58,153 nucleotides of DNA, from assembly GCA_026197075.1 (NCBI GenBank), contig JAPHQV010000048.1:1-58153 (forward strand), in the 5' to 3' direction. Below are positions 16,893-28,636 of the stretch, in pieces. Numbering within the stretch: position 1 is the stretch's first letter; each line of letters opens with the position of its first letter. The notes below the pieces were generated by a model, which saw only the letters and a list, made by a program, of their open reading frames with translations, searched no databases and was not told the DNA's origin. This stretch comes from Gammaproteobacteria bacterium. GTDB taxonomy: Bacteria > Pseudomonadota > Gammaproteobacteria > DSM-19610. Both the position numbers and the translations under genes were made by a program.

Positions 16893-17236
16893 CATTTTCC
16901 TGTCGCGGACACCAACCGTATCCAACCCGACTCCAGTCGCACCGCCACCGCTTGCAGGGCCTGACCCGCGCAGGGGCCGACAAGACAGAATCCGTCCTCG
17001 ATGCGGAAGCGGGCATCGTGGGTGGCACACTGGATATGGCGTTTATCGAGATCGAGAAACTGGTCCGGCATCCAGTCCAGCGGTCCCCCCGTATGGGGAC
17101 ACTGGTTGCGGTAGGCGAATACCTCATCGCCCTGGCGCACCAGGAAGATCTCCTCCGGGCCGGCAGGGCCCTCGATCGCGAAGGCCTTGCTGCCCGGATC
17201 GGGCAAATCCTCAAGGCGACAAAGGCGATCATCCAT
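16892..17236 (-). CDS. Rieske [2Fe-2S] protein
   Basis: A 114-residue soluble Rieske ferredoxin-like protein. The two cluster-binding boxes are CPHTGGPLDW (C-x-H) and CATHDARFRIEDGFCLVGPC (C-x2-H). Without a membrane anchor or catalytic domain it could be an electron carrier or the small component of an oxygenase. It overlaps the start of nothing else but is coupled to the upstream PfkB gene by an 8-bp overlap. The partner is unknown. Confidence 0.92.
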   Translation of the reverse strand: MDDRLCRLEDLPDPGSKAFAIEGPAGPEEIFLVRQGDEVFAYRNQCPHTGGPLDWMPDQFLDLDKRHIQCATHDARFRIEDGFCLVGPCAGQALQAVAVRLESGWIRLVSATGK

Positions 17237-18128
17237 GCTGCGCGTCCTCGGCTTGCAGGGCGGCCAGGGGCAGGTCGCGCAGACCCTCCTGGCCCACCTT
17301 CAGCCCGGCCACACGGCAGGCACGGCCCAGCAGGCTGGCCACGGGCAGGCGCCGCAGGTAGCCGTCGATAACGGCGGCATTGAAGGTATCGCCGGCGCCA
17401 AGCGTATCCACCACCCGCTCCGGGGCAAAGGCACGACTGCGGTGCAAGGCCCCGCCACGCTCCAGGGCCAGGGCACCGGCGGCACCGGCGGTACAGTAGA
17501 GCTCCGCGTCCGGGTGGGTGGCGCGCACGGCGCGCAACAGGGTCTCCGGCGTATCCGCCCGGGAACGGGCATAGACCGGCGAGAACAACAGTACGTCCGC
17601 GAGGCCGAACAGGGTCTCGATGCCGGGACGGGGCTTCTCCACTTCCAGGGAACAGGGAATGTGGGGTGCGATGGCACGGGCATGGGCCAGCATGGCCGCC
17701 GTCTCGGTCACATTGCGGCCCTCGAAATGCAGCCAGTCAATGCCCGCCAGTTCGATGCGGCGAAAATCCTCGGCGCTGAACTCGGGCAAGTCGCGGTAGT
17801 GAATGATGGTCCGGGAGCCGTTGCGGGTATTGAGGGTGATATAGGAGGTGGGTACCTTGCCGGACTCCAGGCAGCGGCAGTGGCGGGTGTCGATACCATG
17901 GTGTTCCAGGTCCGCGCGAATGCGCTGGGCATCGGGTTCCTCCACCCACACCCCGGCCCAGCTCGTCCGGTGTCCCAACTGGCTCAGCACCGCCAGGGTA
18001 TTGGTGGCATTGCCGCCGCGACTGACCCGTTGGGCCCGAGCGCGCACCTCGCTGTCCTCGGCAGGATAACCGTCCAGGGTGTTGACGATGTCGAGGGTGG
18101 CGATGCCGATGGCGAGTATGTGGGCCAT
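17229..18128 (-). CDS. PfkB family carbohydrate kinase (ketohexokinase-like)
   Basis: A 299-residue ribokinase-fold sugar kinase. The N-terminal signature appears as VSRGGNATNTLAVLSQLG and the C-terminal signature with the catalytic Asp as VDTLGAGDTFNAAVIDGYL. FEGRNVTETAAML and the overall layout resemble ketohexokinase-like PfkB members. The substrate is not evident. It forms a two-gene unit with the Rieske protein, which is an odd pairing. Confidence 0.88.
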   Translation of the reverse strand: MAHILAIGIATLDIVNTLDGYPAEDSEVRARAQRVSRGGNATNTLAVLSQLGHRTSWAGVWVEEPDAQRIRADLEHHGIDTRHCRCLESGKVPTSYITLNTRNGSRTIIHYRDLPEFSAEDFRRIELAGIDWLHFEGRNVTETAAMLAHARAIAPHIPCSLEVEKPRPGIETLFGLADVLLFSPVYARSRADTPETLLRAVRATHPDAELYCTAGAAGALALERGGALHRSRAFAPERVVDTLGAGDTFNAAVIDGYLRRLPVASLLGRACRVAGLKVGQEGLRDLPLAALQAEDAQHG

Positions 18129-18167: not shown

Positions 18168-18218
18168 AGGAGCCTGTCGGACTTGCTCGCTACGATCGCT
18201 CAAGTCCGACAGACTCCT
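18168..18218. repeat. 18-bp inverted repeat at the 3' end of the giant gene
   Basis: Arms 18168-18185 and 18201-18218 are complementary with a single mismatch around a 15-bp loop; the arms contain CTGTCGGACTTG/CAAGTCCGACAG. The structure starts within the stop codon of the 1718-residue gene. It has no U tract and looks like an interspersed palindrome that may stabilise the transcript end. Confidence 0.75.
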
Positions 18219-21200
18219 AGCGATCGCGCGCCACCCGAAAGCCCACGTGATCCAGCCGGCTGTCCGGCGCCAGCTGGGCGCGCGCGGTGCTGCGCAGGCT
18301 GTCAGCAACGCTGGCGTAGCCGCCACCACGCACCACCCGCCGTGAGCAACCAGCGGTCTCGACCGCCCGGCCATCGCCGGGCGCGTCCTGGTAGTCGTCC
18401 TGGTAACAATCCTGGACCCACTCCTGCACATTGCCGTGCATATCGTGCAAACCGAAGGGGTTGGCCGCGAAACTGCCCGCCGGGGCGGTGCGGAGGCCAT
18501 CCCAGTCGCTGCCGCAATCATGACAATTGGCCTGCCCCGGGGCCATGTCGTTGCCCCACCAATAGCGCGTATCCTTGCCACCCCGGGCGGCATATTCCCA
18601 TTCCGCCTCGGTGGGCAGGCGATAGCGGCGGCCGGTCTGGGCGGAAAGCCACTCGGCATAGGCCCGCGCATCCTCCCAGCTGACCTGCATCACCGGTCGG
18701 TCGCCCCGCCCCCAGCCCATGTCATCGGGCAGGGAACGCCCGGTGGCCTCGGCAAAGCGATCATATTCCGCAAAACTGACTTCCCGGGCGGCGATGGCAA
18801 AGGCCTTGAGCTGGACTGAGTGGCGTGGCCGCTCCTCGAAATTAGGCGAACCCGGGCCACTGCCCATCTGGAATTCCGTGGCGCGCAGCTCCACCATCCG
18901 GGGACCGCGTCCATCATCGGAGAGCGGATCCGAGAAACGGCGCACCACCGGCTCCCACTCCGGTTCCATCACCGGGGCCGGTGCAGGCGATACGGGCTCC
19001 TGGACCGGAGCGGGCAATTCGGGCTCCCGGGCCGGAGTTTTCGGCGGCACGGACGCAGGTGGAGAAGCCTGCACCGTCTCGGCGGGCTTGGTCTCGGCCA
19101 CCGGGGCCGCTCGTTCGGTGGAGGCGTGCTCGTCATTCTGTTCATTCGGGCCGGACTGGAACAGGTAGAAACCACCCGCCGCCCCCGCCAGGCCCATTAC
19201 CAGACCCAGCAGCACGCCCATCCAGGGCCCGCCCCCGGCCCGCGACGGCTCTGGGACCGGTGCCGGGGGAGGTGGGGTAACCGCGGCGGCAGGTGTGGCG
19301 GGCGTCGCCTCGGGTATTTCCTCCGGCTCGTCCAGGGACGGCACCTCCACCACCGATGTGCGCAAGGCCTGGTCGGTATCCTGGGTGGCAAGGGATTCTT
19401 GCAGGCGGCGCAGCTCCATCTCCGCCCGGTTGCGGCCTTCCTCGGCCTCGCCGCGCAAGCGCACCGCGATCTGTACATTCTGACGGGCCTGGGCCAGTTC
19501 CTGCTCCAGCGCACTGCTGGCCTTTCCGCCGCTTCCTTCGCCATGGAGCTCCGCCAGGCCCTGGGCCACCTCAGCCTCGGCGCGCAACTTGTCGATTTCC
19601 TCGAACATCACCTGTTCCCGGGTACGCAGCTCCTGGGCCTCGCTCTGCGCCTGTTCGAGCTGTTCCTCCAGGGTGGCGATGCGGGACTCCAGACCGGGGG
19701 AAGGCATTGAACGGGCAGTGGCATCGGCCTGTTCCGTCCGCAAGCGGGTCAATTCCTCCCGGGCCTTCTCCAGAGCCTGGCGTGCTTCATCCAGTTGTTC
19801 CTGCAAACGCCCACGCTCCTGCTCGCGCGCTTGCGTGGCCTCCACCAGTTCCGCTCGAACACTCGCTACCAGGGCTTCCTGTTCCGCCAGACCCTGGCGT
19901 TGCTGCTCGCGCTCGGCGGCAGCGGCATTTTCCTGTTCCTGTGCGCTGGCCAGCTCGGCACGCGCGGCCTCCAGCTCCTGCTGCAGCTGCTGACGCTCGG
20001 TCTCCTGCTCCCGTGCCTTGACCAGCTCCACCTGGGCCGTTTCCAGTTCCTGCTGCAGGTGCTGGCGTTCCGCATCCAGGTCCGCTTCGCCGCCCTTGAG
20101 GGAAGCCAGCTCGCTCTCCAGCCGCGTGATCTCCTGCTGCCGCGCCTGGAGCTCCGCTTCCTGTTGCGCCTGGCGCTCCGCATCCTGCTCCCGCGCCTTG
20201 ACCAGCTCCGCCTGGGCCGTTTCCAGTTCCTGCTGCAAACGCTGGCGTTCCGCATCCAGATCCGCTTCGCCGCCCTTGAGGGAAGCCAGTTCGCTCTCCA
20301 GCCGTGTGATCTCCTGCTGCTGCGCCTGGAGTTCCGCTTCCTGTTGCGCCTGGCGAACGGTGTCCTGCTCCCGTAGCGCCACCAGCTCCTGTTCCAGCTC
20401 CTGACGCGCCTCCCGCGCCGTCGCCAGTTCGGCCTGCAACTGCTGCTGGTCGCTTTCGAGTTCCGCCACCCCGGCCCCGCGGCTGGCCAGTTCTTCCTGC
20501 AGTGCTGTGATTTGTTGCCCGAGGTCCTGCTCCCGCCCGGCAAGCTCGCTGGCGTGTGCCGCCACGGCCGCCGCCGCCGCGCTATGCGCTTCCTCGAGAG
20601 ATTGTTTCAGACGGCCCAGTTCCTCGCGCAGGCCGGCCTCCAGGGCGGCACGTTCGGCCAGGGCCGCTTCTGCCTCCTGGCGGGCACGAGTCAGATCCTG
20701 CTGCTCTGCCTCGCGTTGTTCCAATGCCCGGCTGCTGGCGGCCAGGTCCGCGCGCGCGCGCTCCAACTCCTGTTGCAGGGTTTCCTTTTCCTCGCCTAGG
20801 GCCTGCTGGGCGCTCTCCACCTGGGTGCGCGCCTCCGTCAGGGCAGCCTCGCTCTCCTGGCGCAGGGTATCGAGCTGCGCCTGCAGGCCGCCTTCCCGAC
20901 CGCTGGCGGCCTCCACCTCCTGGCGCAGCCGGTCCAGCTCGGTCCCGCGTTCGTCCAGCTGCACCCGCAGCGCTTCCATTTCCTGTTGCCGGCTTTCCTG
21001 CAGGGCACCCTGTTCCTGCAGTGCGCTGTCCAGCGCCGTGAGTCGATTGTCCCGCTCCTCCAGTTCCTTCTGTAAAGCCTGCAGCTGCTCCTGGGCCTCC
21101 CGCAGGCTGGCGAGTGCTTCCGTTTCGCGGGCCGCGGCCTCTTGTGCCGCGCTGGCCGCGGCTTCCTGCCGCTCCCGCAGCTGTTCCTCGTATCGGCTGA

Positions 21201-23373
21201 CCTGCGTTTGCAGCTCGGACAGCTCCTGGCTGCCTCCCTGCAGGGATTGTTCCAGCTCCACCACCCGGGCCCGGGCCTGTTCGGCTTCGGCCCTGGCGGC
21301 GTCGCGTTCCGCGCGCAGGCTCTCTTGTTCCTGTCCGGCGCTGTTGTGCTGTTCGTCCAGCCGCTGTTGCAGGCCGGCCTGTTCCTGCCGCAACACCACA
21401 AGCTGCTCACGGGAGGCGTCCCGCTCGGCCGCCAATTGACTGGCGCGGGAGCCCAGCTCTTCGTGACTACGGCGCAGCTGCACCAACTCCGACTGCAGGC
21501 CGTCGATCTGCTGCTGGCGCTCACCCAGTTCGCCCCGCACTTCCTGGCGCGCCGCGTCCAAGCGCGCCTGCAGTTCGTCACGCTCGCGCTGTACGTCCTG
21601 ACGCTGCTTCTCCAGATCCGTACGTGCTTGTTCCGCCGTCTCCAGGGTAGTCCGCGCCTGAACCACCTCGGCGCGCACGGTCTCCAGTTCTCCGGACAAC
21701 TGCTCCAGCTGCCGGGTACGGTCACCCTGCCCGGCCTCGAGTTCCTTGTGCAATTGTTGCAACCGGGCTTCCGATTGCGACTGTTCCTGTTCCAGCTCGG
21801 CGATCTGTTGGCGGCTGGCCTCCAGTTCCGCCTGGGCCTCGACCAGCTCGCGACGGCCCGCCTCGCGGGCCTCGTTCAACTGTTGTTCATACTGCTTGAG
21901 ACGGGCCTCGGCCTCGGCCTGGGTCTCCTGGGCATCGCTCAGTTCGCCGCGCAACTGCTCCTGGGCCAGTGCGGCCTGTTCCAGGCTTTTTTCCAGCTCC
22001 TGTATACGGGTGTCATCGGCGCCACCGCCCGCCTCGGCGCGGGCCAGGGCGGCCTGCGCCTCTTGCAGTTGCGCCTGCAGGCCGTTGGTCTTTTCCTCTG
22101 CGGCCTTGCGCGCCTGTTGGGCAGACTGGATGGTCTGCCGGGCCGTTTCCTGGAACTCCTTGATGCGTTCCATTTCCCGATCGTAACGGGCCTTCAGCTC
22201 TTGCAGCCGTGCATCCGCATCCGAATCCGCTGCGCTGGCCGGCTCACTGGAGGTATCAAGCGGGATCACCTCCGCACTGGCAGCGGGTGCGGCATGGGCC
22301 GGTGACCCATCGGCCTGCACCAGCACCGAGGCGGGTACAGCGTGCAAACCGCCTTCCAATACATAGACATCCAGCCCGCGCTGGCTGAGTACGAAGGCAC
22401 CAGAGGCGCTGCGGCGTCCGGTATCGCAACAAAGAATGTAACGACTGTCTTCCTCCAGGCGGGTGGAAGGGTCGCGCAGACCGGACAGGGGGATATTGCG
22501 GGCGCCCGGGATAGCGCCGTTTTCGAACTCACCCGGCAGGCGCACATCCAACCAGATCGCACCATCTTCGGCGAGTGTAGCGGCCTGTTCGTAGCTGACC
22601 TGGTGCACCAGGGGTGCCTGCAGCAGCTCCTGGAAGTCCTTTTTGGCCAGGCGCATCAGCGTGCCATCGGTCAACATGGTGATGGTGGCATTGCGCTTGT
22701 TGTTGGAGACCAGAGCATCCTCGCCGAAGCTGGCACCATCACCGAGCTCCGCCAGCTTCACTTCCTTGCCCTGGGCCGTGGCCTTGCGGGTTACCACGCA
22801 GCGACCACTGGTGATTACATAGAAATAATCGCCCTCGTCACCCTGGCGAACGATCACCTCGCCAGATGTGACGGGCAGCGACTCCATTTTCATCAACAAC
22901 TGCTGGATATTGGCCGGCGGCAACTGCATGAAGGCCGGCGACTGGAGCATTCGGGTCATCCAGTCGTCTTCGTCGTCGCTGTCGATTTCGCTGACTTCGT
23001 AACCCGAGGATTCGTCCCAGGTCAGCAGGATATCGAGCAGGCTGGAGTCGATACGGGCCACGATGACATTGGATTTGGCGCGCGCCGAGACCTGGCGCGG
23101 CTGCTGGTGACCAATGGGATGGCGCGCATTGTCGGCACCACCATGGACGCTGCCCAGCACCTCGTTGTCGTCGCCGATGATGCTGACTTCACCATTCAGC
23201 ACGTAGATGGACTGGTTGTCGCGGTCACCCTGCCGGAAGATGAAGCGGCCGGCACGGACTTCCTCGATGATGGCCTTCGCGGCCACCTCGTCCACATGCA
23301 TGGGTGACAGGGCATTCAGGGGCACCAGGTCCCGTAGCGCTTTTTTGTCGACTAGCTTCTTCGCCGCTCCCAT
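18217..23373 (-). CDS. Giant cNMP-binding / rhodanese / coiled-coil / SUMF1-like membrane protein
   Basis: A 1718-residue mosaic protein. Residues ~27-115 and ~148-252 are cyclic-nucleotide-binding folds; the second has a cassette-like FGEDALVSNNKRNAT with the Arg that usually contacts the phosphate. Residues ~255-350 form a rhodanese domain with the active loop CDTGRRS (Cys316), so it may carry a persulfide. Residues ~385-1310 are almost unbroken Gln/Glu/Ala/Leu coiled coil. A Pro-rich stretch precedes one membrane helix (WMGVLLGLVMGLAGAAGGFY, ~1384-1405), then a Pro-rich linker and a C-terminal FGE-sulfatase/SUMF1 domain (~1490-1718) with GNVQEW and RGGGYAS. The two cysteines used by true formylglycine-generating enzymes are absent (RGGGYASVADSLRSTARAQ), so that domain probably binds rather than oxidises. 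The N terminus would be cytoplasmic and the SUMF1 domain periplasmic. Function unknown; possibly a signal transducer or envelope scaffold. Confidence 0.88.
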   Translation of the reverse strand: MGAAKKLVDKKALRDLVPLNALSPMHVDEVAAKAIIEEVRAGRFIFRQGDRDNQSIYVLNGEVSIIGDDNEVLGSVHGGADNARHPIGHQQPRQVSARAKSNVIVARIDSSLLDILLTWDESSGYEVSEIDSDDEDDWMTRMLQSPAFMQLPPANIQQLLMKMESLPVTSGEVIVRQGDEGDYFYVITSGRCVVTRKATAQGKEVKLAELGDGASFGEDALVSNNKRNATITMLTDGTLMRLAKKDFQELLQAPLVHQVSYEQAATLAEDGAIWLDVRLPGEFENGAIPGARNIPLSGLRDPSTRLEEDSRYILCCDTGRRSASGAFVLSQRGLDVYVLEGGLHAVPASVLVQADGSPAHAAPAASAEVIPLDTSSEPASAADSDADARLQELKARYDREMERIKEFQETARQTIQSAQQARKAAEEKTNGLQAQLQEAQAALARAEAGGGADDTRIQELEKSLEQAALAQEQLRGELSDAQETQAEAEARLKQYEQQLNEAREAGRRELVEAQAELEASRQQIAELEQEQSQSEARLQQLHKELEAGQGDRTRQLEQLSGELETVRAEVVQARTTLETAEQARTDLEKQRQDVQRERDELQARLDAARQEVRGELGERQQQIDGLQSELVQLRRSHEELGSRASQLAAERDASREQLVVLRQEQAGLQQRLDEQHNSAGQEQESLRAERDAARAEAEQARARVVELEQSLQGGSQELSELQTQVSRYEEQLRERQEAAASAAQEAAARETEALASLREAQEQLQALQKELEERDNRLTALDSALQEQGALQESRQQEMEALRVQLDERGTELDRLRQEVEAASGREGGLQAQLDTLRQESEAALTEARTQVESAQQALGEEKETLQQELERARADLAASSRALEQREAEQQDLTRARQEAEAALAERAALEAGLREELGRLKQSLEEAHSAAAAAVAAHASELAGREQDLGQQITALQEELASRGAGVAELESDQQQLQAELATAREARQELEQELVALREQDTVRQAQQEAELQAQQQEITRLESELASLKGGEADLDAERQRLQQELETAQAELVKAREQDAERQAQQEAELQARQQEITRLESELASLKGGEADLDAERQHLQQELETAQVELVKAREQETERQQLQQELEAARAELASAQEQENAAAAEREQQRQGLAEQEALVASVRAELVEATQAREQERGRLQEQLDEARQALEKAREELTRLRTEQADATARSMPSPGLESRIATLEEQLEQAQSEAQELRTREQVMFEEIDKLRAEAEVAQGLAELHGEGSGGKASSALEQELAQARQNVQIAVRLRGEAEEGRNRAEMELRRLQESLATQDTDQALRTSVVEVPSLDEPEEIPEATPATPAAAVTPPPPAPVPEPSRAGGGPWMGVLLGLVMGLAGAAGGFYLFQSGPNEQNDEHASTERAAPVAETKPAETVQASPPASVPPKTPAREPELPAPVQEPVSPAPAPVMEPEWEPVVRRFSDPLSDDGRGPRMVELRATEFQMGSGPGSPNFEERPRHSVQLKAFAIAAREVSFAEYDRFAEATGRSLPDDMGWGRGDRPVMQVSWEDARAYAEWLSAQTGRRYRLPTEAEWEYAARGGKDTRYWWGNDMAPGQANCHDCGSDWDGLRTAPAGSFAANPFGLHDMHGNVQEWVQDCYQDDYQDAPGDGRAVETAGCSRRVVRGGGYASVADSLRSTARAQLAPDSRLDHVGFRVARDR
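20006..20365 (-). repeat. 180-bp tandem duplication inside the coiled coil
   Basis: Two successive 180-bp (60-codon) units encode nearly identical segments containing QQEITRLESELASLKGGEAD. CCTGGGCCGT recurs at 20031 and 20211, exactly 180 bp apart. The duplication is in frame and extends the coiled coil without breaking heptads, indicating recent length change by unequal recombination. Confidence 0.85.
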
Positions 23374-23906: not shown

Positions 23907-24293
23907 ATGGCAGCCAAGAAAAAGGCGACGAAGAAGAAGGTAGCAGCAAAGAAGGCCGCAGCTCCGGCCAAGCGCATCAGCACGGTCAAGGAAGCAATGA
24001 CGAAGTCCGCGATGATGGGTGCCATTGCCGATGATACCGGCCTGGCGAAAAAGGATGTTTCCGCAGTATTCGACTCCCTCAGCAACATTATCAACGGTCA
24101 TATCAAGAAGGGCGGCGCCGGCACCTGCACCGTACCCGGTCTGATGAAGATCAAGACCGTCCGCAAGCCCGCCACCAAGGCCCGCAAGGGCACCAATCCC
24201 TTCACGGGCGAAGAAATGATGTTCAAGGCCAAGCCGGCCCGTACCGTCGTGAAGGTTCTGCCGCTGAAGGCACTGAAGGACATGGCTGGCTAA
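23907..24293 (+). CDS. HU family DNA-binding protein with lysine-rich N-terminal tail
   Basis: A 128-residue nucleoid-associated protein. Residues 1-25 are a histone H1-like tail (AAKKKATKKKVAAKKAAAPA). The rest is an HU/IHF fold: TVKEAMTKSAMMGAIADDTGL, the dimer helices DVSAVFDSLSNIINGHI, and a DNA-binding arm ending NPFTGEEMMFKAKPARTVVK. Ordinary HU is about 90 residues, so the tail is the distinguishing feature. It probably adds nonspecific DNA compaction. AGGAGG precedes the ATG and a strong terminator follows, so it is monocistronic. Confidence 0.93.
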   Translation: MAAKKKATKKKVAAKKAAAPAKRISTVKEAMTKSAMMGAIADDTGLAKKDVSAVFDSLSNIINGHIKKGGAGTCTVPGLMKIKTVRKPATKARKGTNPFTGEEMMFKAKPARTVVKVLPLKALKDMAG

Positions 24294-24395: not shown

Positions 24396-24860
24396 CTAGG
24401 TAAGACCCAGGGCTTCCTGGACGCGGTGCTTGGCGCGGATGAAGTCGCGGTGCGACACGTAGAGCAGTTCAGCCACCTTGCGCACCAGGGATTCCTCGTA
24501 CTTGTCCAATTCCCGGTCGGCATAGGCCACCTGCCAGAGCATCTCCACCACCCGCACCTTTTCCTCCGGAGAAAAATGCTCATTGATGAGTCCGGTGAAC
24601 TGGTAGAGGGAAACGGCCTCATGGGCCTCCGCCTCGGCCAGCTCCGCCAGCTCGCGGGTTTCCTCTCCGGTGAGTCCGAATTCCCCCTGTACCAGCGAGG
24701 CCACCATCCGCAGTTCCTCGGGGCGACGGGTGAAATCCGCCCGGGTCATCTCCATCAACAGGGCTGCGGTGGCCAGGCGCAGGCCGTGCTCGCGGGTCTC
24801 CGGACGATGCACCTCGGCATCGATGTGCTGCTGAAAAAACGTCTTGATCGCGTGTAGCAT
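24396..24860 (-). CDS. TerB family protein
   Basis: A 154-residue all-helical protein of the tellurite-resistance TerB/DjlA-N fold. The repeated acidic pattern EMTRADFTRRPEELRMVASLV and VAYADRELDKYEESLVRKVAEL is the metal-binding helical motif of TerB domains. Many TerB proteins have nothing to do with tellurite and act in membrane-associated stress or secretion contexts. It is the last gene of a gspA-gspB-protease-terB run. No ribosome site is obvious before the ATG at 24860. Confidence 0.85.
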   Translation of the reverse strand: MLHAIKTFFQQHIDAEVHRPETREHGLRLATAALLMEMTRADFTRRPEELRMVASLVQGEFGLTGEETRELAELAEAEAHEAVSLYQFTGLINEHFSPEEKVRVVEMLWQVAYADRELDKYEESLVRKVAELLYVSHRDFIRAKHRVQEALGLT

Positions 24861-24888
24861 GGCGTATCCGAATTGCTGCGCTCGCGTT

Positions 24889-26364
24889 TCAGACCCGTCG
24901 CGCGGCGCAATCGTTCCGTCTCGCAAACCGATAGAGCACCCAGGCCAGCCCCAGCCACCAGAGCGCTTCCGGTCGGCTGTCACCCGCCTGGACGCAACCG
25001 CCACCACCGCCGCCGCCGCTGGTCGGTTCCGGCAAGGCGCGCAGGGCCAGGATAGCGCCTTGCGCATCCAGCAGACCGGCACCACAGAGGCTGGTGTTGC
25101 AGCTGCTGTCGGGGAAAGGTTTCGCCCCCGCCAGCAGGGCCTGGCGCAGCTGGCTGACCGTAGCGGTCGGCCGGTCGGCGCGCAGCAGGGCGAGCACCCC
25201 GGCGACCTGGGGGGTGCTGAAGCTGGTGCCCACAAACTTATCCGTATAGCCGTCACCGTCGGCGGCCGTGGCACCCAGGTTGGTGGTGGTCATGATCCCG
25301 AACATCTGCCCCCCCGGGGCCGAGATATCCACCGCGGATCCATAATTGCTGTAGGAGGCCAGCTTGCCGGCACGGGTGACCGCCGCCACCGTGATCACCC
25401 CCCTGCAGCTGGCCGGACTCGCATTGGCCGCGTCGGTGGCCTCGTTGCCCGCGGCTACCACCACCACGGCACCGTGGGCAATCACCTCATCTATCACCGG
25501 CTGCTCGAAGGATGGATTGCATTTCGCATCGGCGCCCAGACTGAGATTGATCACCTGAGCAGGATGAGGATTCGTCGGCACCCCTGGCACTGACAGGCCC
25601 ACTGCCCAGCGCATGGCATCGAGGATATCGGAAAGCAAGGCCCCGCACTGGCCGGAGACCCGCACCGGCAAGAGGCGCGTCCTATGATCCACGCCGGCGA
25701 TGCCGATGCCATTGTCCGCCGTTGCCATGAGCACACCGGCCACCTTGAGCCCATGCCAGCTGCTGTTTTCCCGGTAGGTGCCGTCACCACAGACATCGTC
25801 AGTGACCGTATCACCGGGATCGGTGGGGTCAGCGTTCCAGTCGTGGAAATCGTATCCAGGCAGGACTCGCGCAGCATTGATGTCCTCGTGGGGCAGAATG
25901 CCGGTATCCAGCACCGCGACCACCACCGAGGTGGAGCCTCGCTGCAGATCCCAGGCAGCCTGAGCATTGATGCCCGCGGCATCGAACAGATACCACTGAT
26001 CGGCGTACAGGCTGTCATTAGGCACGTATTGCAGGCGTCGCCGCCGGTCTGCCTGCACGGCCTTGATGCGCGGGTCCGCCACCAGGCGTTCCAACGCCTC
26101 TGCTTCCTCCATGCCTGCCCCGGCGCGCCATTCTAGCAAGGAAAAGCGCCCCGCCACCTCGCGAATCCAGGTCAATTCCAAACCAGTCGCGCTGCCCACT
26201 TCCGCCAGCAGCCCCGGGCCGGGCGGCGTGGTCACGGCCTCCGCCCAAAGCACCATTACACGCCCCTCCGCATAGAGCGTCGGCACCCACAGCAGCAGGC
26301 ACAGCAACAGCAAACGGTGTCCGCGCCATATCCCGCGCACCAGGTTCAAATCAAGGCCGGTCAT
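24889..26364 (-). CDS. Secreted subtilisin-like serine peptidase (S8) with C-terminal anchor tail
   Basis: A 491-residue exported protease starting at 26364 (MTGLDLNLV...). The signal helix is LLLLCLLLWVPTLYAEG, followed by a ~100-residue propeptide. The catalytic triad is in VVVAVLDTGI (Asp153), SSWHGLKVAG (His204) and VGTSFSTPQVAG (Ser381), with oxyanion Asn in VVAAGNEATD. The C terminus is a glycine run (GGGGGGGCVQ), a hydrophobic helix and Arg residues, like GlyGly-CTERM or MYXO-CTERM tails that are processed by envelope sorting proteases. The start overlaps the gspB stop by 14 bp. Co-transcription with gspB/gspA suggests it is a type II secretion cargo; that is inference. Confidence 0.9.
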   Translation of the reverse strand: MTGLDLNLVRGIWRGHRLLLLCLLLWVPTLYAEGRVMVLWAEAVTTPPGPGLLAEVGSATGLELTWIREVAGRFSLLEWRAGAGMEEAEALERLVADPRIKAVQADRRRRLQYVPNDSLYADQWYLFDAAGINAQAAWDLQRGSTSVVVAVLDTGILPHEDINAARVLPGYDFHDWNADPTDPGDTVTDDVCGDGTYRENSSWHGLKVAGVLMATADNGIGIAGVDHRTRLLPVRVSGQCGALLSDILDAMRWAVGLSVPGVPTNPHPAQVINLSLGADAKCNPSFEQPVIDEVIAHGAVVVVAAGNEATDAANASPASCRGVITVAAVTRAGKLASYSNYGSAVDISAPGGQMFGIMTTTNLGATAADGDGYTDKFVGTSFSTPQVAGVLALLRADRPTATVSQLRQALLAGAKPFPDSSCNTSLCGAGLLDAQGAILALRALPEPTSGGGGGGGCVQAGDSRPEALWWLGLAWVLYRFARRNDCAARRV

Positions 26365-26986
26365 AACGGAATTGTTCTCCCTGGTACGAAAGCACCACCC
26401 CTTGTGGGGTGATGCGTTCCAGCATCGCACCTTCCTTGAGACGGTCCCCCTCGCGGTAACGGTTCATATTGATGAGCACGAAGCGTTGCGCGGGCTGCTC
26501 CGCATAGACATGGACATCCAGGCTGAGTCCCGCGGCCAGCTGCTGCACCGCTGCGGATCCCCGCTGCCAGGGATCGATGGAATAGACCGGCGTTTCCTGC
26601 GCGACGGACTCCCGGCCTGCCGGCAACGGAACCTGCTTCTCGTGCGGTGTCGACGCGGAAGGCGGTGCCAGCACGATGGCCGGGCTCGGGTCCGGTTCGG
26701 GCGCATCCCGGGCGGGAAGCAGCGCGGGCCTGATCGGGGGTGCCACATCCCTGGTGGACGGGGGGTCTTCCAGCGCCACCGGGGCGGGCGGTATGGAAGG
26801 AGATTCGCGCAGGTACAGGAACAGCAACAGGGCCTGTACCCCCAGGAACAGCAGGACCAGCACCAGGGCCAGGCGGCGATAGTCCCGCCGCCCGCCCGCC
26901 ACCCGGTGGCTGGCACGCAGGTCGGGTACCGCGCCACGGCTGCGTTCCTGGTCCGCCTTTTTCAACGCCTCGAGTATGTAGGACAT
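26351..26986 (-). CDS. gspB: Type II secretion assembly protein GspB
   Basis: A 211-residue single-pass inner-membrane protein. It begins with the family signature MSYILEALKKADQERSRG, has one membrane helix (LALVLVLLFLGVQALLLFLYL), a Pro-rich periplasmic linker and a C-terminal T2SSB domain ending EGAMLERITPQGVVLSYQG. GspB works with GspA to help the secretin GspD insert through peptidoglycan. It sits 9 bp after gspA. Confidence 0.92.
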   Translation of the reverse strand: MSYILEALKKADQERSRGAVPDLRASHRVAGGRRDYRRLALVLVLLFLGVQALLLFLYLRESPSIPPAPVALEDPPSTRDVAPPIRPALLPARDAPEPDPSPAIVLAPPSASTPHEKQVPLPAGRESVAQETPVYSIDPWQRGSAAVQQLAAGLSLDVHVYAEQPAQRFVLINMNRYREGDRLKEGAMLERITPQGVVLSYQGEQFRYDRP

Positions 26987-26995
26987 AAAGCCTCG

Positions 26996-28636
26996 TCAGT
27001 CCGCGTCCCGCACCAGCCGGGGCATGCCCAGCTCCTGTGACAGCTTGTTCAATTGCATGATGGTACGCGGCCCCACCACCCCGTCGGCCTCCAGCTGGTG
27101 GTAGCGCTGGAAGTCCTGCAAGGCGGCCTGCAGGCCGTCGTCGAAATATTCAGCCGTGGTCTGCGCCGGCACGTCCAGCTGCTCCCGCACCCAGCGCACG
27201 GCGACGCCCGTATCAGCGGCACGCAACAGGGTCACGCCCCCCGGCAAGGCCCGCCATACCAGGGCATAGTCGCCGAACCAGGCTTGCTGGACACGGCTGG
27301 CGGGCAGCCGCCAGGTCTGGTCGCCCGCGCCCAGCGTGGCATGCTCGCCATCCAGGCTGTGGAGCACCACCGCGAGGCGGCGTCCCTCCGGTCCCACCAG
27401 GTAGAGCAGTGCCGGGTGGCCCGCGTTGCGCAGGGCCTGCCAGGAACCGCTGCGACTCAGGCAATGCAGCTCATGTTCCGGCAGCTGCTGGCACAGTTGC
27501 GCGCCAGTGCCACCCTGGGCCTCCACTCCCCAACGTGCCAGCAGGGCGTGCCAGGCCGCGTCCTCACCGGCCCGGGTGGCCGCGGCCACCAGCTGCGTCC
27601 AATCCGCCTCCACCTCTTGCTGCACCACTGGTGTGGGTTGAGGCTGAGCCGGCGCGGCCGGCGCGGTGGCCGGCGGGTCGGGCCGTGGTTCGAGGTCGGC
27701 CGCGATCGCCGGGCGTGGCGCAGCCCCTTCCCCGTTCCAGGGCTGCCACCACCAGGCGGCCAGCGCCAGGCCTGCCACAAGGGAGGCGGCCAATGCCCAG
27801 CCCCAGGGGGCCGGACTGGCTGGCGCGGCGGCCGGCAGTACCTCACGCGCGGCGCGGCGCAGCACGGGGGTGGTGACCTGCGCACGGTTTTCCACATAGG
27901 CACCCAGCAGGGCGCGGTCGGCCAGGACATTGATCAGGCGCGGTACGCCCCCGGACAGGCGTTGCAGGGCATCGAGGGCGCCCCGGCCGAACAACGAACC
28001 GCCGGCGCCACCGACCTGCAGGCGATGCAGGACATAGGCCTCGGTCTCGGTCCGGTTCATGGGCTCCAGGTGATAACGGGCGGTGATCCGCTGCGCCAGC
28101 TGGCGCAGGTCGTCCCGGGCCAGCAGGTCACGCAGCTCCGGCTGGCCGATCAGGATCACCTGCAGGAGTTTTTCCCGCTGCGTTTCCAGGTTGGTCAGCA
28201 GGCGCACCTGCTCCAGCACCTCGGGACTGAGGTTCTGGGCCTCGTCGATGAGAAGCACGGTCCGGCGCCCGGCCGCATGGGCCTGCAGCAGGTAACGATT
28301 GAGGGCATCGGTAAGGGTCTTGATGCTGTCGGTCCCCGCGGGATAGGGAACCCGCAGTTCATCGCACAGGGTGGCGATCAGCTCCAGGGCCGTGACCTTG
28401 GGATTGAGGATCAGGGCCACATCCACATTGTCCGGCAGCTGCTCCAGCAGGGCGCGGCACAGGGTGGTCTTGCCGGTACCCACCTCGCCGGTGAGCTGCA
28501 CGAAGCCACCTCCCTCCCCCACGCCATAGAGCAAATGGGCCAGGGCCTCGCGATGACGCGCACTCATGAACAGGAAGCGCGGATCCGGGGCGATGGAAAA
28601 GGGCCGCTCGTCCAGGTGAAAATGCTTTTCGTACAT
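26996..28636 (-). CDS. gspA: Type II secretion ATPase GspA/ExeA with peptidoglycan-binding domain
   Basis: A 546-residue protein starting MYEKHFHLDERPFSIAPDP, the ExeA signature. The AAA domain has Walker A GEVGTGKTT and Walker B TVLLIDEAQN. A membrane helix follows (WGWALAASLVAGLALAAWWW). The periplasmic part has a C39-peptidase-like domain and a C-terminal peptidoglycan-binding repeat with DDGLQAALQDFQRYHQLEADG. With GspB it supports secretin assembly. The core gsp genes are not in this window. Confidence 0.93.
   Translation of the reverse strand: MYEKHFHLDERPFSIAPDPRFLFMSARHREALAHLLYGVGEGGGFVQLTGEVGTGKTTLCRALLEQLPDNVDVALILNPKVTALELIATLCDELRVPYPAGTDSIKTLTDALNRYLLQAHAAGRRTVLLIDEAQNLSPEVLEQVRLLTNLETQREKLLQVILIGQPELRDLLARDDLRQLAQRITARYHLEPMNRTETEAYVLHRLQVGGAGGSLFGRGALDALQRLSGGVPRLINVLADRALLGAYVENRAQVTTPVLRRAAREVLPAAAPASPAPWGWALAASLVAGLALAAWWWQPWNGEGAAPRPAIAADLEPRPDPPATAPAAPAQPQPTPVVQQEVEADWTQLVAAATRAGEDAAWHALLARWGVEAQGGTGAQLCQQLPEHELHCLSRSGSWQALRNAGHPALLYLVGPEGRRLAVVLHSLDGEHATLGAGDQTWRLPASRVQQAWFGDYALVWRALPGGVTLLRAADTGVAVRWVREQLDVPAQTTAEYFDDGLQAALQDFQRYHQLEADGVVGPRTIMQLNKLSQELGMPRLVRDAD

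Follow-up and report, generated by a model that had tools for sequence, protein, structure and literature searches.

A conserved gammaproteobacterial protein family joins tandem cyclic-nucleotide-binding and rhodanese domains to a long coiled coil and a PvdO-like domain

A 1718-residue multidomain protein and its locus

We analyzed a stretch of gammaproteobacterial DNA of 58,153 nucleotides (the window) that contains an unusually long gene on the minus strand (Table 1). The open reading frame is real. It begins with ATG and codes for a protein of 1718 amino acids whose start (MGAAKK...) is common to its orthologues. A Pfam scan identified two cyclic-nucleotide-binding domains (cNMP_binding, PF00027; whole-protein E 3.4e-30), a rhodanese domain (PF00581, E 5.2e-13) and an FGE-sulfatase domain spanning residues 1491-1716 (PF03781, E 2.6e-60). 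The two cyclic-nucleotide-binding domains (CNB1 and CNB2) and the rhodanese form an N-terminal module (N-module), which is followed by a heptad coiled coil, a single transmembrane (TM) helix and a C-terminal domain of the FGE/SUMF1 fold. A sequence-only reading of this DNA had proposed the same order of domains, and both the Pfam scan and the homologues bear it out.

Table 1. Features of the locus, in positions of the window
Feature	Position	Strand	Basis
Whole gene, tandem cNMP-rhodanese-coiled coil-TM-SUMF1/PvdO-like, 1718 aa	18217..23373	-	ORF, Pfam, orthologues
CNB1, residues 1-146	22936..23373	-	Pfam PF00027, column counts, AF2 model, Foldseek
CNB2, residues 147-261	22591..22935	-	PF00027, cassette FGEDAL...KRNAT, E218 and R227
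Rhodanese, residues 262-345	22339..22590	-	PF00581, loop C316-D-T-G-R-R-S
Coiled-coil rod, residues 386-1340, about 955 residues	19354..22218	-	Period 3.525
180-bp tandem repeat, 2.1 copies, within the coil	19998..20374	-	Repeat detection
Predicted transmembrane helix, residues 1387-1405	19159..19215	-	Kyte-Doolittle
SUMF1/FGE-fold PvdO-like domain, residues 1491-1718	18220..18903	-	PF03781, four invariant Cys
TerB-domain gene (PF05099), conserved upstream neighbour	24399..24869	-	Pfam, locus comparison
PfkB-family sugar kinase, conserved downstream neighbour	17229..18128	-	Locus comparison
HU-like DNA-binding protein, Lys/Ala-rich N-terminal tail	23907..24293	+	Divergent from main gene
S8 peptidase, GspB-like, ExeA/GspA-like ATPase block	24889..28636	-	Conserved at locus in family

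Upstream of the gene, moving outward, lie genes for the HU-like protein, the TerB-domain protein, the S8 peptidase, a T2SSB/GspB-like protein and an ExeA/GspA-like ATPase that carries a peptidoglycan-binding domain. The HU-like gene lies close to the main gene in only a few loci. The TerB and PfkB genes remain nearby in other families as well. This persistence favours vertical descent of one orthologous locus, and it names no function.

The N-terminal module resembles the tandem CNB modules of PKA-R and PKG

We examined the conservation of the putative nucleotide pockets in 55 aligned homologues. Residues G213, F216, G217, E218 and L221 of CNB2 are invariant, and R227 is present in 54 of the 55 sequences. 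The phosphate-binding cassette of CNB2 is thus canonical by sequence and includes both its Glu and its Arg. CNB1 lacks the glutamate of the FGE motif; its Pro92 is kept in all 55 homologues and its Arg93 in 53. The sequence profile of the module matches the tandem CNB modules of PKA-R and PKG, with E-values down to 5e-50 for PKG. An AF2 model of the module (pLDDT 84, pTM 0.54, which leaves the relative orientation of the domains uncertain) matches the tandem CNB folds of PKA-R and PKG, with a Foldseek E of about 1e-19 for the PKA-R fold. The tandem CNB arrangement is common to the PKA regulatory subunit, PKG and the window protein. Unlike PKA and PKG, the window protein has no kinase domain, its CNB1 pocket is degenerate, and the tandem leads into a rhodanese and a long coil. 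Assignment of the protein to the class of cyclic nucleotide sensors is well supported as a prediction from these sequence features.

The rhodanese combines a PF00581 match with a cysteine in a six-residue loop. Cys316, which had been singled out from the sequence alone, occupies the aligned catalytic position of this loop (CCDTGRRS). The catalytic cysteine is kept in 49 of 55 homologues. Since six homologues have lost it, catalysis cannot be universal in the family.

The C-terminal domain is PvdO-like and predicted to be periplasmic

We scored the protein for membrane-spanning segments and found the best window at the TM helix (Kyte-Doolittle mean 1.95). A linker of about 80 residues rich in Pro, Glu and Ala follows it. 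The charge ahead of the TM helix is more positive than that behind it in 26 of 36 homologues, equal to it in seven and less positive in three. The flanking charge supports, as a prediction, the cytoplasmic N terminus and periplasmic C terminus proposed earlier, and this N-in/C-out topology is well supported at the sequence level.

The SUMF1 domain was modelled with AF2 (pLDDT 95.5). Its fold best matches PvdO, the pyoverdine maturation protein of Pseudomonas (TM 0.91; Z 34.0, rmsd 1.6 over 231 aligned residues), as does its sequence profile (E 3.8e-54). PvdO is also its closest solved relative, at 36-38% identity. The two share the FGE fold and a cysteine pair, Cys171/Cys191 in alignment numbering. 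The pair belongs to a set of four cysteines that are invariant among 37 sequences of the domain, and putative disulfides among them would fit a periplasmic location. In contrast to PvdO, the window domain is fused to a TM-anchored coiled coil and has an additional invariant CxxC. It scores 145.7 bits against the PvdO NCBIfam equivalog, for which the cut-off is 500, and we recognized no pyoverdine genes in the conserved neighbourhood.

Other relatives of the fold were compared in the same way. FGE/SUMF1 itself resembles the domain in fold (Z about 29-31), but the catalytic cysteines of the FGE copper site are absent from all 37 aligned domains. This agrees with the sequence-only reading, which had called the domain catalytically impaired. 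GldK/PorK, a lipoprotein of the type IX secretion system (T9SS) in Bacteroidota, uses an FGE-fold domain in a structural ring and matches the window domain with Z 28.8; the window protein scores 89 against this family, where the cut-off is 350.

These data bear on whether the protein could be a sulfur or redox enzyme complex that works across the membrane. The cytoplasmic rhodanese would then move sulfane sulfur and the PvdO-like domain would carry out an oxidation in the periplasm. The retention of the rhodanese cysteine in most homologues, the proximity to PvdO and the presence of EgtB, OvoA and SenA among relatives of the fold are consistent with such an activity. However, a long distance and the membrane itself would separate the two sites, the copper cysteines are uniformly missing, and no sulfur-metabolism gene is conserved among the locus neighbours. 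We consider this explanation quite improbable.

The coiled coil behaves as a spacer of variable length

Hydrophobicity along residues 386-1340 repeats every 3.525 residues with a spectral power of 51, and the highest power in 500 shuffled sequences was 10.9. The heptad signal is far beyond chance. Proline is absent from residues 379-1223. The coil had been estimated at about 900 residues. Its presence is upheld, and its length is closer to 955 residues, which at 0.1485 nm per residue predicts a rod of approximately 142 nm if it forms one continuous coiled coil. The suggestion that the rod could span far across the cell goes too far, as a rod of some 140 nm would cover just part of a cell's width.

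We compared conservation along the protein using six aligned homologue pairs. The ends are about 45-67% identical overall (46-65% for the N-module and 50-67% for the SUMF1 domain). The coil is 25-42% identical, versus 25-35% for sequences of shuffled composition; it lies within about 0-7 points of shuffles of the same composition, and for most pairs the difference is a few points. The stretch between the N-module and the SUMF1 domain ranges from 458 to 1408 residues, with a median of 1017, in the window protein and 35 homologues. Conserved ends, a coil near the shuffled level and freely varying length indicate that the rod is most simply a spacer. The 180-bp tandem repeat within the window's coil shows how coil length can change.

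We considered whether the protein might instead be mainly a mechanical or cytoskeletal element, in which the coil polymerizes or cross-links and the CNB and rhodanese domains control assembly. Long heptad coils are common to SMC proteins, Rad50, intermediate filaments and the window protein, and the heptad power exceeds every shuffle. A branch of the family has soluble coils, with paired nearby copies in five genomes, and there is weak, sub-threshold similarity to intermediate filaments and myosin tails. Yet the matches of the window protein and its homologues to SMC, filament and myosin models all fall below curated cut-offs and reflect coiled-coil composition, and the coil sequence is essentially unconserved. 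We judge a primarily cytoskeletal role distinctly unlikely. An SMC-like identity was also rejected: the SMC score is 81 where the cut-off is 567, and the protein, unlike SMC and Rad50 with their ABC-ATPase heads, has no ATPase domain in the Pfam scan.

The same measurements apply to the proposal of an outside-in TM receptor. Here the PvdO-like domain would bind a ligand or cofactor and the coil would signal to the heads, with cyclic nucleotide acting only as a modulator. The FGE/C-type-lectin fold does serve as a binding or structural module without FGE chemistry in Treponema variable protein 1 and in PorK, and the two terminal domains are conserved to the same degree. Conformational signals would, however, be poorly transmitted by a coil that runs to several hundred or more than 1000 residues and varies freely in length, and in many homologues the N-module and its coil come with neither a TM helix nor a SUMF1 domain. 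A receptor of this kind therefore appears unlikely to us.

The architecture is widespread in Gammaproteobacteria

We searched genomes with the N-terminal 351 residues as the query and examined 58 loci. The full order of N-module, coil, TM helix and SUMF1 domain occurs in 36 proteins, including that of the window, from 16 GTDB families. The arrangement had been called very unusual from the sequence alone; it is a conserved and widespread architecture rather than a one-off. The same reading had held that homologues without the N- or C-terminal domains would mark the gene as fused locally or misassembled, and in fact homologues from 16 families have both ends. A same-genus genome does have the gene split over two contigs, with one copy running into PfkB. 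The order nevertheless recurs in 35 other proteins, some of them from single-contig genomes, and we regard a local fusion or assembly artefact as having a negligible chance of being the explanation. In the same-genus copy (L007:3-3281, genome G001), the SUMF1 domain breaks off after '...VGSFAARY' and the reading frame carries on into the PfkB kinase downstream. This join is either a real deletion that fused two genes or a metagenome-assembly join.

Within the GTDB family of the window, 18 of 20 genomes, its own included, match along almost the entire module with 58-100% identity. Of the other two, one has a standalone form at 48% identity and one has a scaffold gap. The order-level search covered the same 20 genomes. 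An apparent loss of the cNMP domains in genome G007 was initially attractive as a natural experiment, but it is explained by a stretch of Ns where scaffolds were joined (L055:6375-6475), and no real loss occurred; a seemingly truncated cyclase paired with this loss was dropped along with it.

Across Gammaproteobacteria, the N-module is present in 168 of 369 sampled genomes (E 1e-40 or better). No copy was found on plasmids at E 1e-30. The module also occurs as a standalone protein of about 350-400 residues, on soluble coils of 700-1700 residues, and on a coil with a TM helix and no SUMF1 domain, the last forming one supported clade (99/95). In a tree of the N-module, the SUMF1 label requires at least 10 changes, versus 26.8 in shuffles. 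At least eight of the changes are forced by well-supported branches, and some stem from rows truncated by contig ends. The occurrence of the SUMF1 form in several places in the tree indicates that the architecture is old and has been lost or gained more than once.

Several individual variants were recorded. In family f87 (L095 and L097), a PP2C phosphatase domain lies between the rhodanese and the coil, and in L095 one in-frame stop separates the SUMF1 domain. Two genes for an N-module with a soluble coil lie close together, divergent or in tandem, at L106, L116, L117, L119 and L121. The genome of the window carries a paralogue (L002, G000:C45:62016-63011), a standalone cNMP-cNMP-rhodanese protein with 34% identity. 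The branch of this distant paralogue is long and separate, and genomes of the family carry orthologues of it.

Adenylate cyclases co-occur with the N-module

We surveyed cyclase genes as a guide to the ligand. Of the 20 genomes in the family, 19 encode a class I adenylate cyclase. The window's own genome is among the 19 and has no class III cyclase. In raw counts that ignore phylogeny and genome size, a class I or III cyclase is found in 165 of 168 genomes with the module versus 91 of 201 without it, and class I alone in 98 of 168 versus 10 of 201. By a hand count that likewise ignores phylogeny and genome size, the module is present in 51 of the 56 families that have a class I cyclase. Three genomes have the module and neither cyclase class (G102, G225 and G258), and in one of these the module belongs to the SUMF1 form. 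This co-occurrence could reflect shared ancestry. Matches to the CRP-binding site are not enriched in the window, where we counted 9 and chance predicts 18.

Cyclase genes also neighbour homologues at loci outside the window's clade, in keeping with the genome counts. In five loci from two families, all in the clade without SUMF1, the homologue has an FHA-class III cyclase gene nearby. In one genome (G150), cyaA is convergent with a standalone module at a distance of about 140 bp.

A possible cAMP-responsive tether at the inner membrane

We propose, tentatively, that the protein is a cAMP-responsive tether or scaffold anchored in the inner membrane, a reading that as a whole we consider possible rather than probable. 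It draws on the domains, the heptads, the conserved pocket and architecture, the predicted topology and the cyclase co-occurrence. Its firmest parts are the sensor class, the spacer character of the coil and the topology, and support for cAMP as the ligand is indirect. The PKA regulatory-subunit-like CNB module would bind cyclic nucleotide through CNB2, most likely cAMP, and CNB1, having lost its key glutamate, would probably be structural or allosteric. The rhodanese may be an output or partner-binding head, perhaps a redox or persulfide sensor, whose exposure or activity would be gated by cAMP. The coil, kept for its length and heptad character rather than its sequence, would keep the heads as much as about 140 nm off the membrane, and through it the protein would presumably form a parallel oligomer. 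The TM helix and Pro-rich linker would put the PvdO-like, non-FGE domain on the periplasmic side, and there it could anchor or position the molecule through a periplasmic partner or ligand. A broader version is that these proteins are bacterial analogues of golgins or AKAP tethers: a class-wide set of cAMP-controlled tethers with PKA-R-like heads, a coil as spacer and a repurposed FGE-fold anchor. We think this broader version rather doubtful.

In Gammaproteobacteria, cAMP is viewed mainly through the transcription factor CRP. If the tether model is true, the family would provide a non-transcriptional target of cAMP at the envelope and a new kind of envelope scaffold. The family belongs among the multidomain cNMP-sensor proteins, is conserved across much of Gammaproteobacteria and is apparently undescribed. 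We found no description of the architecture in the literature searched, from which subscription journals were mostly absent, so an earlier mention is possible. Each domain is known, and within that literature what is new is their combination as a conserved family. The CNB-CNB-rhodanese module occurs in nearly half of the sampled genomes and on at least five different bodies, again with no published description in the literature searched.

The coil-TM variants that neighbour a cyclase (L109, L111, L112, L113 and L114) share a further set of genes. The FHA-class III cyclase is accompanied there by a TonB-C-like protein and, in most cases, a DUF2914 protein. The cluster occurs in two families and has the look of a separate signalling locus.
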